From Actinomycetota bacterium (GTDB lineage: Bacteria > Actinomycetota > Actinomycetes > S36-B12 > CAIYMF01), in assembly GCA_020161245.1 (NCBI GenBank), contig JAIUOK010000003.1:62001-126000 (forward strand): a stretch of DNA of 64,000 bases, given 5' to 3'. This document shows, piece after piece, positions 10,414 through 54,430 of the stretch (position 1 is its first letter; each line of letters begins with the position of its first letter). Both the position numbers and the translations under genes were made by a program. The notes under the pieces are model-generated. The model was not told where the DNA came from. It ran no database searches and saw only the letters and a program-made list of their open reading frames with translations.

Positions 10414-10432
10414 CCCACACCCGGCCCGTCGT

Positions 10433-10618
10433 TACGGGTGAAGGTGCCCCTGCTTGCGATAGAAGCAAGGAAAGCGCCCCAGGCTGTCCACACCCGCGGC
10501 GTGTCGTGGCTGTGGACGGACCGGGCGGCCTCGGCTGAGAAACGCCGGGCAGAGTCCGCCTGTGGACAGCCTGGGGCGGAAAACTTGCTTCTAAGGCAAG
10601 CAGGGGCACCTTCACCCC
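10433..10618. repeat. Family-1 palindromic element, copy A (orientation alpha-to-beta)
   Basis: A MITE-like element of about 186 bp in the gap between two convergent genes. The outer arms are inverted repeats of about 55 bp that begin GGTGAAGGTGCCCC, contain a small hairpin CTTGC...GCAAG, and end CAGGCTGTCCACA. The arms differ consistently. The left 'alpha' arm has GCGATAGAAGCAAGGAA before GCGCCCC; the right 'beta' arm, read inward, has CCTTAGAAGCAAGTTTT before CCGCCCC. About 68 bp lie between them. The element encodes no transposase. Compare 18700-18890 and 51091-51875. Confidence 0.85.
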
Positions 10619-10643
10619 GAACGGCGCTGGCCGAGGGGCGGGG

Positions 10644-18676: not shown

Positions 18677-18699
18677 GGCAGAACCCCGGACCTCGGCTT

Positions 18700-18890
18700 T
18701 ACAGGTGAAGGTGCCCCCACTTGCCTTAGAAGCAAGTTTTCCGCCCCAGGCTGTCCACAGCTCTTCCGCGACGGCGTGTCCCGGTCGGATCCGTGCGCCG
18801 TCGTCCACATCAGCGACACGCCGTCGCTGTGGACGGCCTGGGGCGCATTCCTTGCCTCTATCGCAAGCAGGGGCACCTTCACCCGTTATA
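18700..18890. repeat. Family-1 palindromic element, copy B (orientation beta-to-alpha)
   Basis: The same element as copy A, but inverted. Here the beta arm (CCTTAGAAGCAAGTTTT) is on the left and the alpha arm (GCGATAGAGGCAAGGAA read inward) is on the right. Next to the alpha arm the interior also matches copy A (GGCGTGTCG followed by TGTGGACG), so the two copies are homologous over more than the arms. It lies downstream of the MalY-type gene and upstream of xth. Confidence 0.85.
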
Positions 18891-20117: not shown

Positions 20118-20180
20118 CGAGTAACTGCCCGAATCCTCAGTTCGGAGCCCCCGCAACCGAGGATTCGAGCAGTTACTCGC
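20118..20180. repeat. Family-2 palindrome, copy 1
   Basis: An imperfect palindrome of about 62 bp with ends GAGTAACTGC and GCAGTTACTC, and inner halves resembling CGAATCCTC and GAGGATTCG. It lies in the divergent region between the C-S lyase and the PadR gene. A second copy occurs at 54365-54430. Confidence 0.8.
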
Positions 20181-20207
20181 GGCCTGGCGGTGCTGGACGC
20201 GGTCATG

Positions 20208-26534: not shown

Positions 26535-26550
26535 GCCGTCCCTGAGGTCC

Positions 26551-26614
26551 GCGTGTAACACCAGCATGTGCGGCAAAACCGAGGCGCTTTGCTGCACATG
26601 CTGGTGTTACGTGC
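26551..26614. repeat. Family-3 palindrome, copy 1
   Basis: A 64-bp palindrome with arms GTGTAACACCAGCATGTGC and GCACATGCTGGTGTTAC, plus inner GGCAAAACC and GCTTTGC-type pairing. A closely similar palindrome lies at 27659-27723, so the two bracket a single gene. Confidence 0.85.
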
Positions 26615-26679
26615 GTGTCGTCCCCAGGTGCGGGCTTTCTCCCCCGAGGGAGGGCGTGTTGTCGACCCACCCTCCCGGC

Positions 26680-27666
26680 ATGACACAGCATGTGAGGTCC
26701 GCTCAGGTCGTTCAGGAACTGGCATCGGCGCTCGGCCCCGGGCCTTGGACCGTCGGACAGGTGCTGGCCGCCGGGTGGTCGCGCGGGCAGCTGCGCAGCG
26801 CCGTGACAGCCGGCCGGCTTGTGCGGCCGCACAAGGGTGCGGTGGATCTCCCGTCCGGCGCCGGGAGCACCGCCGCCACCGCGCGAGCCGCGCTGCTGAC
26901 GCTCTCCCGTCGCGCCGCGCTCAGCCACAGCACGGCGGGTACCGAGCAACGCTTGTGGCTGCCACGCCGGCCGGATCCTCATGAGCACGTGACGGCGCCG
27001 GGCGACGCCGACGATCTGCGGAACACCGTCCGAATCCACGGCTGCTCGTTGCCCGAGGAGTGGGTCACGGTGAGGAACGGCGTGAGGATGACGTCTCCTG
27101 CGAGGACGGCGGTCGACCTGGCGCGGGGCGCCAGTTTGCCTGACGCCCTCATCGTCCTCGACTCCTTTCTGCGGCTGTGCATCGGCGACGATCCGTCCGA
27201 CCCTGCACTGGCACGTGGAGACGAGCTCCGTCGCGAAGCCCGCCGCCGCGGCGTGCCGCTTCTGGAGGCGGCGTACCTCGGCGAGTTCGGATGGCCGGGC
27301 ACGGTCGTGGTCCGCGACGGCATTCCGCTCGCAGATGCAGGGTCGGAGTCGCCGCTCGAGAGCTGGTCGAGGGGCGTCATGATCAAGGAGGCGCTCCCAC
27401 GCCCCGTCATCGGCGCCCATGTCCAAGGCGCCTCTGGTGCTTGGTACTGGGTGGACTTCCTCTGGGCAGGTGCCGGCGTGATCGGCGAGGCTGACGGCAT
27501 CGGGAAGTACGGCACCACCGACGACGACGTGCGTCAGGCCATGACTGCAGAACGACGTCGTCAGGCCGACCTCGAGGCGGCCGGCTACGTCGTGATCCGC
27601 TGGACCTGGTCGGAGCCCACTGGCCAGTGGCTCAGGCGGCTCAGGCGAGCTCTGGGACGCGCGTAA
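26680..27666 (+). CDS. AbiEi-like winged-helix plus PD-(D/E)XK nuclease-like protein
   Basis: A 328-residue protein of a family frequent in actinobacteria, often annotated 'type IV toxin-antitoxin AbiEi antitoxin domain protein' or DUF559. Residues 1-60 look like a winged helix (WTVGQVLAAGWSRGQLRSAV...RLVRPHKGAV). The C-terminal half contains SPLESWSRGVM, a hydrophobic strand VDFLWAGAGVIGEADGIGKY and a closing strand YVVIRWTW. This E / D / GExDGxxKY pattern resembles VSR-type nucleases. No AbiEii toxin gene is adjacent, so a toxin-antitoxin role is not supported. The TAA stop lies within the second flanking palindrome. Upstream there is no clear ribosome binding site. Confidence 0.65.
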   Translation: MTQHVRSAQVVQELASALGPGPWTVGQVLAAGWSRGQLRSAVTAGRLVRPHKGAVDLPSGAGSTAATARAALLTLSRRAALSHSTAGTEQRLWLPRRPDPHEHVTAPGDADDLRNTVRIHGCSLPEEWVTVRNGVRMTSPARTAVDLARGASLPDALIVLDSFLRLCIGDDPSDPALARGDELRREARRRGVPLLEAAYLGEFGWPGTVVVRDGIPLADAGSESPLESWSRGVMIKEALPRPVIGAHVQGASGAWYWVDFLWAGAGVIGEADGIGKYGTTDDDVRQAMTAERRRQADLEAAGYVVIRWTWSEPTGQWLRRLRRALGRA

Positions 27667-27723
27667 CACCAGCAAGTGCAGCAAACACGGCCGGTTTTGC
27701 TGCACTTGCTGGTGTTACACGCG
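27659..27723. repeat. Family-3 palindrome, copy 2
   Basis: CGCGTAACACCAGCAAGTGC pairs with GCACTTGCTGGTGTTACACG around a GCAAA.../...TTTTGC inner stem. It contains the stop codon of the preceding gene and ends 4 bases before the stop of the convergent phosphatase gene, so it may also terminate transcription from both sides. Confidence 0.85.
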
Positions 27724-41577: not shown

Positions 41578-41583
41578 CCGGAC

Positions 41584-41647
41584 GCGTGTAACAGCCTGAG
41601 ATGGGCCAAAGCCCGGCTCTTCTGCCCCACTTCAGGGTGTGACACGC
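41584..41647. repeat. Family-3-related degenerate palindrome
   Basis: GCGTGTAACAGCCTGA and its imperfect complement TCAGGGTGTGACACGC enclose TGGGCCAAA and TTCTGCCCC-type halves. The ends match the family-3 palindromes at 26.5 and 27.7 kb (GTGTAACA...), while the centre differs. It lies 7 bases after cydC. Confidence 0.65.
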
Positions 41648-41663
41648 GGACCTCTCCGGCCGT

Positions 41664-50086: not shown

Positions 50087-51076
50087 ATGCTGGGCGCCGT
50101 CGGACTCGACGCCGTGGAGGAGGAGGTCTACCGCCAGCTCGTGCTGGGCGGTGAGACCACGCCTGCCGCGCTGTCGTCGACCCTCGGGCGCAGCGCCGCC
50201 GAGGTGTCGGAAGTGCTGGACCGGCTCGCGCGGGCCGGTCTCGTCGTCGCGGCTCCTGGCTCCGGCAGCGGTGCGACGGCGTACGTCGCCGCTCCGCCCG
50301 CCGTCGCGCTCGGGGCCCTGCTGCGCGAGCAGCGCGACGCGCTCTACTCCGCCGAGCTCGATCTGGCCGAGCTGGCCGATGCGCATCGCAGCGCCCTGGC
50401 GACCGCGACCACGGCCGACGTCATGGAGGTCATCACCGACCCCGCGGCGGTGCGCCACCGGTTCGCCCAGCTGCAGCGCGGCGCGCAGCACGAGGTGCGG
50501 TCGATGATGGTGCCGAACCTGTCGGTCGTGCCCTACGACGAGAACGACGCCGGCTACGAGTCGATGCGCCGCGGCATCCGCTACCGCGCCATCCTCGACC
50601 GGTCCGCCCTCTCGCAGCCCGGCATCGTGCAGGCGATCCTGCGCGACCTCGACCGCGGCGAGCAGATCCGGGTGGCCGACCACGTCCCGGTGAAGCTCGT
50701 CATCGCCGACGAGTCGCTCGCGATGCTGCCGCTGTCGGCCGAGCGCAACACCGCGCCCGAGTCGGTGCTCGTGCACGCGGGCGGCGTCCTGTCGGCGCTC
50801 ATCGCCTACTTCGAGGCGGCCTGGGAGCGGGCCTACCCGCTGTGGCCCAACCGCGAGGGCGACGACCTCGTCGAGATGCGGCCGGGCGAGATCGACTCCG
50901 TCGACGAGCGCATCCTCGCGCTGCTGCTCGCCGGCATGACCGACCAGGCCCTCGCCGGCCAGCTCGGCCTGTCCCTGCGCACGGTCCAGCGCCGCATCCG
51001 CGGCCTCATGGACACCGCCGGCGTCGACACCCGCATCCAGCTCGGCTGGTACGCAGCCCGAGCCGGCTGGGCCTGA
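50087..51076 (+). CDS. TrmB/LuxR-type transcriptional regulator
   Basis: A 329-residue protein. Residues 1-65 are a TrmB-like winged helix (LDAVEEEVYRQLVLGGETT, VLDRLARAGLVVAA). A ~190-residue effector-like region follows (VMVPNLSVV, RYRAILDRSAL). The C-terminal LuxR/GerE helix-turn-helix is at about 265-325 (VDERILALLLAGMTDQALAGQ, then LSLRTVQRRIRGLMDTAGVDTR). This double-HTH design is common in actinobacteria. Its gene follows the secreted subtilase in the same direction, which suggests shared control of protease genes. The ATG has a GAAGGGG ribosome binding site; the frame is open further upstream but without signals. Confidence 0.85.
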   Translation: MLGAVGLDAVEEEVYRQLVLGGETTPAALSSTLGRSAAEVSEVLDRLARAGLVVAAPGSGSGATAYVAAPPAVALGALLREQRDALYSAELDLAELADAHRSALATATTADVMEVITDPAAVRHRFAQLQRGAQHEVRSMMVPNLSVVPYDENDAGYESMRRGIRYRAILDRSALSQPGIVQAILRDLDRGEQIRVADHVPVKLVIADESLAMLPLSAERNTAPESVLVHAGGVLSALIAYFEAAWERAYPLWPNREGDDLVEMRPGEIDSVDERILALLLAGMTDQALAGQLGLSLRTVQRRIRGLMDTAGVDTRIQLGWYAARAGWA

Positions 51077-51362
51077 CCCCGCCCTTCTTTACGGGTGAAG
51101 GTGCCCCCGCTTGCGATAGAAGCAAGGAAGGCGCCCCAGGCTGTCCACAGGCGCAGCGGCGGGAGGGTCGTCGTCCCCAGATCCGGGTGCACCTCCCGGC
51201 ATGCCTCTGTCGGATGACCTAGCCGGATCGGGCCGTTCTGCAGCCCATCGGCGCGATCCGCGCCCAGCGCTGTTCCGGCGCTCGCGGCGCCGGGGTACAC
51301 AGGGACGTACCCGGGTGGGCGGTACCCGCGGCTGTCACTCACTTAGACGGTCGGGGGACGAC

Positions 51363-51656
51363 ATGACTGCTCAGCACCGCTCAACCCGCGCGAGCCGCCT
51401 CACCCGCTGCGCCCTCGTGGCGTCCACGGCCGGCCTCCTGATGCTCGGGCTCGCTGGATGCGGCTCCGACTCCGGAGCGCAGGCACTCGACGTGACCTCG
51501 GCCACCGCCGTGGCCCCGAGCGACGCCAGCCGGAGCTGCTCGGCGTATGTCCGTCAGGCACGGCGCGGCGACGTCGTCGTCAGTCACCGCGGCGTCCCCA
51601 AGCGTGCTCGGGCGACGGTCCCCTGTGCGGCTGCGATCTCCGTCGGGTCCCGCTGA
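51363..51656 (+). CDS. Small lipoprotein inside the repeat-bounded cassette
   Basis: A 97-residue protein with a basic signal peptide and a lipobox (MLGLAGC, lipidated C33). The mature part is only about 65 residues and has two further cysteines (SRSCSAY and TVPCAAA) that could form a disulfide. I do not recognise the family. The ATG lacks a strong ribosome binding site (GGGGGAC lies about 9 bases upstream). A 15-bp perfect terminator stem follows, so the gene is likely an expressed unit carried between the repeat arms. Confidence 0.6.
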   Translation: MTAQHRSTRASRLTRCALVASTAGLLMLGLAGCGSDSGAQALDVTSATAVAPSDASRSCSAYVRQARRGDVVVSHRGVPKRARATVPCAAAISVGSR

Positions 51657-51718
51657 GCCTGGCCATACGGCGCGGCACGACGGCCAGGCGCCTCTAGCAG
51701 CCGACCTCACGCGGAGGA

Positions 51719-51763
51719 GCCCTCCGGGTCGCGGCACGGGGGATGTGTCGCGACCCGGAGGGC
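51719..51763 (+). terminator. Terminator of the cassette lipoprotein gene
   Basis: GCCCTCCGGGTCGCG and its exact complement form a 15-bp stem with a 15-base loop, 62 bases past the stop. Confidence 0.8.
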
Positions 51764-51897
51764 TGCCTGTGGATGGCCTGGGGCGCCTTCCTTGCTTCTA
51801 TCGCAAGCGGAGATGGGCCCCCGCTGGTCGGGGCGGAGGAACGACGCCGCGGCCAGTAGGGGACTTCACCTGTAACGCGGTGACCACCTTGTAACGG

Positions 51898-53316
51898 TCA
51901 GCGGAGGGCGTGGCCGAGGCGGAAGAGGTTGTGGGGGTCGACCTCGTCCTTGAGGGCCAGGAGGCGCTCGAGGGTCTGCGGGTCGTAGGCCTTCCGCAGG
52001 CGCTCGGGGTCGCCGTTGCCTACGGCTCCGAGGAAGTTCGGCAGCACGGTCGAGGTCTGCCACGGACGGGTCGCGTCCAGGATCGACTCGACGACGTGCG
52101 GCGTCACCTGCTCGAGGCCCGGGGCCATGACGCCGATCGCGAACAGCGACCACGCGGCGTCGCGGCCCTGCACCGCGTTGGGCGACTCCGGCTGGCGCGA
52201 CAGAGCACCGCCCAGCTGGCGCAGCTCCACGACGACGACGGGGATGTCGTGCTGCGGCCCGGCGACGTCGACGATCGCGTCGATCGTCTCCTCGGTCAGG
52301 TCGTGCAGCAGCGCGCCGGCGTCGTGGAACGGCAGCGGGTCGACGGGATCCATGTGGACCATGTCGGTCGCGTGCGGGTCGATCTCGCCCGTCATCGCCA
52401 TGACCACCGGTGCCGCCGCCATCATCGGTGCCAGCAGCGCCTCGGCCTCCGCGGGATCGCCGCAGTGCGTGTAGCGCAGGTGGACGACGAACTTGCCGCG
52501 GATCGGCTCCGGCACGGTCTCCAGCGGAGGCACGCGCAGCAGCGCGATCGAGGTCATGGCCTCCTCCGGCAGCGTGGCGGTCCAGGTGCGGTACGCCGCG
52601 AGCACCTCGCGGACGTGGGCGCCGTCGAAGATCACCGGGCCGCCCCAGAGACGGGCCGGCACCAGCTCCACGGTCATCGAGGTGACGACGCCGAAGTTGC
52701 TCCGGCTGCCGCGCATTCCCCAGAACAGCTCGGGCTCGCTCTCGGCGTCGACGTGGCGGACGACGCCGTCGGCGGTGACAACCTGCAGGCTGCGCACCTT
52801 GTCGGCGGCCCAGCCGTGCTTGCGGGCGAACAGGTTCAGCCCGCCGCCGAGGGTGTAGCCGAACGCGCCGACGCCCTGGCTCGAGCCGACCATGGGCATG
52901 AGCCCGTGGGGCGCCGAGACGGCGACGACGTCGCGCCAGCGCACACCGGCCTCGAGCGTCGCGGTGCCCTCGACGGGGTCGACCGAGACGGCGGTCATCC
53001 GCGAGGTGGTGATGACGACGGCGTCGACGAGCGCGGCGCCGCCGTGGCCGGTCGACTGGACGGCGACGGGCAGGCCCTGCTCGCCGGCCCAGCGGACCGC
53101 GGCCGCGACGTCGTGGGCGCTCGTGGCGCCGACGACGACGGCGGGGCGGTGGACGACGGCGAGCTGGAAGCCGGCGATCTCGGCGGCGGCCTCGTACGAG
53201 CCGCCCTCGAGGACCGGGCCTTCGACCGACGCGACGAGCGCGTCGAAGGCCTCGCGGGTCACGGATCCGGCAGGGGCCTCGTGAGCCCCGTCGTGCCGGG
53301 TCGGTGCGATGGTCAT
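51898..53316 (-). CDS. FAD-binding oxidoreductase of the BBE/PCMH (berberine-bridge-like) family
   Basis: A 472-residue flavoprotein. The FAD_binding_4 domain (about 55-225) includes VAVQSTGHGGAALVDAVVI, GVRWRDVVAVSAPHGLMPMV and GYTLGGGLNLFARKHGW. The BBE segment at the C-terminus reads LKDEVDPHNLFRLGHAL. Enzymes of this type oxidise sugars or secondary metabolites. The usual second flavin-linking cysteine is absent from the GVGAFGYTLGGG loop, so attachment is at most through the N-terminal histidine. It is divergent from a LysR gene with 148 bases between, the classic regulator-target arrangement. A GGAGAGAG ribosome binding site precedes the ATG. Confidence 0.9.
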   Translation of the reverse strand: MTIAPTRHDGAHEAPAGSVTREAFDALVASVEGPVLEGGSYEAAAEIAGFQLAVVHRPAVVVGATSAHDVAAAVRWAGEQGLPVAVQSTGHGGAALVDAVVITTSRMTAVSVDPVEGTATLEAGVRWRDVVAVSAPHGLMPMVGSSQGVGAFGYTLGGGLNLFARKHGWAADKVRSLQVVTADGVVRHVDAESEPELFWGMRGSRSNFGVVTSMTVELVPARLWGGPVIFDGAHVREVLAAYRTWTATLPEEAMTSIALLRVPPLETVPEPIRGKFVVHLRYTHCGDPAEAEALLAPMMAAAPVVMAMTGEIDPHATDMVHMDPVDPLPFHDAGALLHDLTEETIDAIVDVAGPQHDIPVVVVELRQLGGALSRQPESPNAVQGRDAAWSLFAIGVMAPGLEQVTPHVVESILDATRPWQTSTVLPNFLGAVGNGDPERLRKAYDPQTLERLLALKDEVDPHNLFRLGHALR

Positions 53317-53465: not shown

Positions 53466-54373
53466 TGGAGCTGCGGCTGCTGCGCGCGTACGTCGCGGTC
53501 GCCGAGGAGAAGCACTTCGGCCGGGCCGCGGCACGGCTGTTCATCACGCCGCCCTCGCTCTCGCAGCAGATCAAGACGCTCGAGAAGTCGCTCGGCGTCC
53601 GGCTCTTCGACCGCGACCCGCGCGGAGTGCGGCTCACGCGGGCGGGCGAGGCCCTGCTCGAGCAGGCCCGAGCCACCCTGGAGCAGGCCGACCGCCTCGA
53701 GGAGATGGCCGCGATGCAGGCTGGCAGCGTCACGGCCGAGCCGCTCGTCGTCGGGTTCCTGCTGTTCTCGCTGACGGCGGTCTCCCGCGGGCTCCTGGCG
53801 GAGTACGGCCGGGTGCATCCCGAGGTCGTGATCCACGTCCGGCAGTACGAGTGGGACGACCCGTCCGCGGGCCTGCTGTCCGGCGCGGTCGACGTCGCCC
53901 TGGTGCGCCCGCCGTTCCGCGGCGCCGAACGCCTGCGATCCGTCGAGCTCGACCGCGACCCGCTGCTCGCTCTGGTGCCCGCCGACCACCCCATCGCCCT
54001 CGACGGCGGCCCGGTACGCGCCGGCCGCCTCGTGCGCGAGCCGTTCCTCGAGGTCACGCTCGTCAACGACCCCGTGTTCGCCGCCGCGTGGTACCTGCAC
54101 GACCTGCGCGACGACCAGTGCCCGGCCCCGGTGATGAGCCGTGCGACGACCAGCGAGGAGTGGCTGGCCGAGGTCTCGCTCGGGCGCGGGGTCGACGTCG
54201 TCCCCGAGTCGGTCGCCCAGGACTACGTGCGGCCGGGCCTGGCCTTCGTCCCCATCGAGGACCTGCCGCCGTCGCGCCTGGTGCTGGCCTGGGACCCTGG
54301 CCGGATCTCCGAGGCCGGACGCCGGTTCGTCCGCTACGTCCAGCGCCGCAGCCCCGCCGACTCCCGCGAGTAA
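53465..54373 (+). CDS. LysR-family transcriptional regulator
   Basis: A 302-residue protein with the LysR winged helix at residues 1-60 (LRLLRAYVAVAEEKHFGRAA, LSQQIKTLEKSLGVRLFDRD) and a periplasmic-binding-like effector domain after residue 90. It is divergent from the FAD oxidoreductase and likely controls it. The last two codons and the TAA stop (54371-54373) lie inside a family-2 palindrome, so the C-terminus has probably been reset by insertion of the repeat. Initiation may be near-leaderless. Confidence 0.93.
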   Translation: MELRLLRAYVAVAEEKHFGRAAARLFITPPSLSQQIKTLEKSLGVRLFDRDPRGVRLTRAGEALLEQARATLEQADRLEEMAAMQAGSVTAEPLVVGFLLFSLTAVSRGLLAEYGRVHPEVVIHVRQYEWDDPSAGLLSGAVDVALVRPPFRGAERLRSVELDRDPLLALVPADHPIALDGGPVRAGRLVREPFLEVTLVNDPVFAAAWYLHDLRDDQCPAPVMSRATTSEEWLAEVSLGRGVDVVPESVAQDYVRPGLAFVPIEDLPPSRLVLAWDPGRISEAGRRFVRYVQRRSPADSRE

Positions 54374-54430
54374 CTGCCGGAGTCCTCGGTTTCCGGGCGT
54401 CGAAACCGAGGACAACGGCAGTTACTCGCG
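54365..54430. repeat. Family-2 palindrome, copy 2
   Basis: CGCGAGTAACTGCC pairs exactly with GGCAGTTACTCGCG. The inner arms TCCTCGGTTTC and GAAACCGAGGA pair perfectly around a short loop. It supplies the stop codon of the LysR gene. It is related to the copy at 20118-20180 by the outer GAGTAACTGC and the inner CCTC...GAGG. Confidence 0.85.

Follow-up and report, generated by a model that had tools for sequence, protein, structure and literature searches.

The window, that is the whole 64,000-nt stretch of DNA that was analysed, belongs to contig C64 of a genome of 4.29 Mb (G000; relatives are numbered in the same way), and in it a predicted lipoprotein gene (51363..51656, + strand) is enclosed by two inverted copies of a repeat which we call the alpha arm. 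The left arm (51089..51150, + strand) is a full copy of the alpha type, reading TTACG-GGTGAAGGTGCCCC-[CTTGC gatagaa GCAAG]-GAAGGCGCCCC-AGGCTGTCCACAG, with a P-type inner sequence. The right arm has an inverted alpha core (51765..51812, - strand), which comprises the inner part and corresponds to a truncated alpha arm at 51767-51812. It continues into a beta part (51813..51875, - strand) consisting of a second hairpin, CTGGCCGCGGCG-TCGTTCCT-CCGCCCCGACCAG, and an outer end, TTACAGGTGAAG. The alpha arms of the window are complementary at 96% over 46 nt with a spacing of 612 nt, and the inverted alpha pair that the original prediction had placed at the two ends is therefore real, with a full left arm and an alpha core on the right. 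The same prediction had taken the right arm to be split by about 46 bp, through age or a second event; what lies there instead is the alpha core followed by a recurrent hairpin. As the outer part (51813-51875) recurs 12 times in the genome, with several occurrences directly outside an alpha core as in the window, it is an arm type of its own (beta) and no accident inside an alpha arm. The C92 pair carries beta parts at each of its ends, and arms with a beta part are also found at C79 and C16. Beta hairpins of about 80-100 bp with TGAAG/CTTCA ends also stand alone, without an alpha core (L092-L096, around position 1500). On the 3' side of the lipoprotein gene is a GC-rich 24-bp hairpin (51714..51768, unstranded) which folds at -29.6 kcal/mol (z -8.2 against shuffles). 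It had been described as a perfect terminator, but this strong hairpin has no T tract and a terminator scan found no U-tract terminator at the cassette; no sigma-70 promoters were found at the cassette either.

The cassette is preceded by a gene for a TrmB-like/HTH regulator (50087..51076, + strand) and followed by a gene for an FAD-binding oxidoreductase (51898..53313, - strand, start not fixed) which is divergent from a LysR-type gene. The enclosed ORF encodes 97 residues with a signal peptide and the lipobox LAGC, and an ORF of this kind appeared in just 2 of 2,000 dinucleotide shuffles of the interval, in agreement with the proposal that a 97-residue lipoprotein gene lies between the arms. 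The GC content of the ORF by codon position (0.70/0.68/0.85) is unlike that of the neighbouring genes (0.78/0.49/0.96), so that the gene is atypical. The predicted lipoprotein is an orphan, with no match to a Pfam family and no credible homolog among 60 relatives. With no homolog in these 60 genomes, the gene was not met at the same place in arm-less relatives, an arrangement that was held in the original prediction to speak against capture. The only relative with the upstream regulator is G009 (77%), where the ortholog is directly followed by pdhA and the gap between regulator and pdhA contains no arm, lipoprotein, FAD oxidoreductase or LysR gene. A site without the cassette, as had been anticipated, is therefore seen in so far as arms and lipoprotein are missing from the gap, but the cassette is not the only difference, since the 2.5-kb FAD oxidoreductase/LysR block is missing too. 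Because the FAD oxidoreductase is not conserved beside the regulator in relatives, the lipoprotein locus could not be polarised. The comparison of sequences is compatible with the lipoprotein cassette having been gained at its site, which falls short of proof of the capture itself.

The alpha arm is a structured hairpin repeat of about 52-62 nt with a conserved outer motif, TGAAGGTGCCCC, and the loop GMTAGR, and its copies in the genome number 49 by DNA match and 48 by a covariance model. Of these, some stand alone, and others form 11 short inward doublets (<260 bp) or seven longer inward pairs. The gene-less short inward doublets are 130-190 bp in length; the window itself holds two such two-arm alpha elements without a gene, a P-Y pair (10432..10620) and a Y-P pair (18699..18887), both unstranded. 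A single arm folds no better than its shuffles (z -0.26). In a set of 56 arms taken from several species, the inner stem had 58 two-sided cells of compensatory change vs 25.5 in shuffles, and its covariation score was 0.222 vs 0.079 when shuffled, with slid controls lower. The alpha arm has no credible match among the known RNA families in Rfam, and neither arms nor nuclease (see below) were found in the viral contigs scanned or in phage records. At 17 elements no target-site duplication was visible, and the comparisons turned up no exact empty site. In G000 and again in G002, clpB has an arm on its upstream side. Other repeats are also present in the window. A palindromic intergenic repeat, AGTAACTGCC...GGCAGTTACT, is found at 54364-54428 and 20118-20182, one copy being directly 3' of the LysR gene that adjoins the cassette block, and a third palindromic family, GTAACACCAGCA..., is found at 26550-26615, 27658-27723, and 41583-41648, its first two copies being close and the third diverged.

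The arrangement of the window is not unique within the genome. There are seven long inward arm pairs where 0.21 were expected (at most four in 20,000 simulations), and 7 of the 8 adjacent non-short arm pairs closer than 5 kb point inward. Besides the lipoprotein, they enclose an LLM-type oxidoreductase (FAH-[LLM]-AKR), an AbiEi-like nuclease with a 139-aa protein, sm139 (next to murA), a GNAT acetyltransferase (DUF4446-copA), galE with an inositol monophosphatase gene, imp (purC-[galE-imp]-purS), an AAA regulator with a globin (meth-topA; alpha-beta arms on both ends), and, in the C9 pair, 333 bp with no obvious gene. All six gene-bearing pairs have P-P inner sequences, and the short doublets are mostly P-Y. 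The search for the same arms around other cargo, as proposed originally, thus yielded five more gene-bearing pairs with mostly different genes.

Two like-type inverted ends around a complete gene are therefore a real and recurrent class, but the accompanying idea of capture does not hold as their general origin. Where relatives have no arms at the site, galE is found between purC and purS, together with imp in G009 and G010; LLM follows FAH in G001 and G003, where arms are absent at the site; and 11 of the 12 relatives examined have sm139 next after murA. Of the five gene-bearing pairs other than that of the window, three thus enclose at least one gene whose position is unchanged in arm-less relatives, so that the synteny which was to count against capture does occur among the sister cassettes. 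As galE/imp, LLM, and sm139 are residents, capture is not the general origin of the bracketed genes, and bracketing alone is no proof of cargo movement. Elsewhere the pattern looks like gain. The meth-topA gap of ten relatives is without the regulator and the globin, and several relatives carry pheA at DUF4446-copA, in the place taken by arm-GNAT-arm in G000; native pheA is missing from G000, the sole match being a divergent copy (37%; G000:C85:53913-54578). By gene order, the regulator and globin at meth-topA and the GNAT gene replacing pheA look like gained cargo. In the relatives examined, the murA-sm139 gap does not contain the AbiEi-like gene.

Orthologs of this AbiEi-like gene (54-58% identity) are present in G002, G005, G006, G007, and G009, and in all five the gene lies directly between inward arms in a unit of about 1.2 kb; the G006 ortholog beside an arm was predicted from arm presence and then found. 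The last 14 nt of the gene overlap the arm by the identical amount in 5/5 relatives, so that gene and arms form one unit. The insertion sites differ, with three or more loci (acs/nhaA, beside glyS, and pirin/alpha-galactosidase) and murA/sm139 in G000. The pirin/alpha-galactosidase site is common to G007 and G009, with the nuclease gene in opposite orientation (L174 3854-5030, L176 1823-2999). In G000, the downstream arm of the nuclease gene is displaced beyond the resident sm139, and the protein is without C-terminal residues common to the relatives. Arms number 37-73 in each of the six congeners that have the ortholog and 0-1 in the five that do not (exact p ~0.002); these counts rest on draft assemblies, and diverged arms could be missed by a covariance model derived from arm-bearing genomes. 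The prediction that held for G006 failed for G014, a genome 72% complete, in which 15 arms were found and the ortholog was not. Immediately internal to the G000 arms (e.g., 51141-51150 in the window) is a GTCCACAG box similar to the DnaA boxes of actinobacteria, and it is also present 5' of the nuclease genes in many relatives.

The N-terminus of the bracketed protein is an AbiEi_4-like winged helix (Pfam E 1e-5 to 0.02, mostly below the cut-off), and its C-terminus gives a weak match to MTES_1575/DUF559 (E 0.0003-0.05), for which the best score of 21.1 bits is below the curated threshold of 38.2. The C-terminal domain has a conserved D...ExDS...H pattern, and a profile search of the PDB with the protein gave no match. 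MTES_1575 has been described as a nuclease domain of the Vsr fold (PMC3710099), and AbiEi antitoxins bind inverted repeats (PMC7319586). The bracketed protein shares its AbiEi_4-like N-terminal domain with the AbiE type IV toxin-antitoxin system and differs from it in having an extra nuclease-like C-terminal domain and a gene placed between arms; inspection of the ORFs of the bracketed units L173-L176 revealed no AbiEii toxin partner.

More distant paralogs and homologs (31-50%) in G001, G010, G011, G013, G016, and G017, and others in G000, also have inverted arms, of different sequence. At G007 C185 the arms next to the gene point the same way and a third arm lies beyond them, and at G000 C59 one side of the gene is hidden by the contig end. 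Paralogs with a decayed nuclease motif (L198, L201, L202) have no bracketing arms. In a class-wide sample, the gene was found at E <= 1e-20 in 74 of 197 genomes, and a bracketing inverted repeat was present at 18 of 28 loci vs 2 of 113 control genes (Fisher p 9e-14, which overstates independence because the control genes come from the family of the window only, 3 of the 28 loci, L204-L206, repeat known cases, and some loci are of one genus). A homolog from Rhodococcus ruber (36%) likewise lies between hairpin arms; the hairpin sequence matches at 11 places in the 74-kb record, where a palindrome may count twice. A gene which we take to be MmcQ/YjbR-like accompanies the nuclease of one clade, and it was seen within or next to the arms in three genomes (L195 2578-3033, L199 883-1383, L200 1039-1458).

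We found no description of this arm-nuclease association in the open-licence PMC literature searched. The nearest likeness is to the REPtron, in which one enzyme gene is flanked by inverted structured repeats that are also dispersed in the genome (PMC6006769). As in the REPtron/RAYT systems (REP, BIME, REPIN), an enzyme gene lies between inverted dispersed repeats (5/5 relatives), tens of copies occur as singles and inverted doublets and co-occur with the enzyme (with the exception of G014), and the repeat sequence is genome-specific and patchily distributed (PMC6006769). Unlike them, there is no HUH/Y1 transposase here and a protein with an AbiEi-type winged helix and a weakly Vsr-like domain takes its place; the arms are larger, some doublets carry passenger genes, and the arm-nuclease element occupies several loci, whereas for REPtrons transposition as a unit is said not to occur. 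A RAYT/HUH transposase was considered as the mobiliser and rejected, as PF01797 was found in none of 30 genomes (G000 and 29 relatives) and in 5 of 14 controls. MIC/MICE and MITEs are non-autonomous elements bounded by inverted ends, and passenger genes are present in MICs and absent from MITEs (PMC5444012). The stretch 51089-51875 resembles a MIC in sharing its ends with an autonomous form in relatives and in having a passenger gene and no transposase inside. It differs in that the ends are hairpins apparently cognate to a nuclease-like protein and not TIRs of a DDE transposase, and no target-site duplication was seen.

We consider the feature in the window to be, with somewhat better than even confidence, a passenger-bearing, non-autonomous member of a REPtron-like repeat system with a non-HUH nuclease. 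The autonomous form would be the unit of about 1.2 kb, in which two inward arms enclose the gene for the AbiEi-type winged-helix/Vsr-like nuclease. The nuclease would recognise the hairpin of the arm, most likely in single-stranded or extruded form, and cut it, upon which arm doublets could be copied or moved in trans. Any gene between two compatible inward arms would then in principle be a mobilisable cassette, and the lipoprotein cassette may have moved in this way in the past. Among the derivatives, short doublets would resemble MITEs and gene-bearing pairs would resemble MICs. Speculatively, a doublet may lose or displace one of its arms and a distant arm become the partner, leaving a resident gene between arms.

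The most serious alternative, though a doubtful one, is that arms inserted independently on either side of a resident gene, in which case the pair would have no joint mobility and the lipoprotein would be a local gene. The residence of galE/imp, LLM, and sm139 in arm-less relatives and the many solo arms in the genome are what such insertions would leave. They are harder to reconcile with the inward orientation of 7 of 8 adjacent pairs against an expectation of 0.21, with the P-P type of all six gene-bearing pairs where short doublets are mostly P-Y, and with a lipoprotein that has no credible homolog in relatives. Composite capture, in which recombination of two short elements would have enclosed a foreign lipoprotein gene in a unit that later came to its present site, appears to us unlikely. 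The like-type arms of the window, the orthologous G009 gap without arms and lipoprotein, and the resemblance of the regulator and globin, and of GNAT beside DUF4446 in place of pheA, to gained cargo agree with it. Nevertheless, joining two short doublets would not obviously yield a P-P pair because doublets are mostly P-Y, three sister pairs enclose resident genes, and the G009 gap is also without the 2.5-kb FAD oxidoreductase/LysR block.

We give similarly little credence to the reading, drawn by analogy, that the arms may be host regulatory elements (terminators, or mRNA-stabilising or insulator hairpins) which the nuclease gene uses as operators. It would account for their intergenic position, for compensatory change that keeps the structure, and for the arm preceding clpB in both G000 and G002, and it has a parallel in the inverted repeats bound by AbiEi antitoxins (PMC7319586). 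Conversely, the patchy presence of arms tracks the nuclease, both sides of the gene carry them, their sequences are species-specific, and they have no T tract.

If our REPtron-like reading of the arms, with a non-HUH nuclease, is carried beyond the window, the chances are about even that AbiEi-type winged-helix/Vsr-like nucleases with their inverted arms constitute a widespread class of selfish elements in actinobacteria, spreading arms without HUH or DDE enzymes and possibly taking passengers along. Were this true, the dispersed hairpin repeats of many Actinomycetes would gain a candidate cognate enzyme, and the spread of REP-type repeats would not be confined to HUH transposases. A role would also be suggested for a common gene family that is usually noted only for its AbiEi-like domain. 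Ordinary genes would likewise have a route by which to end up between mobile ends.
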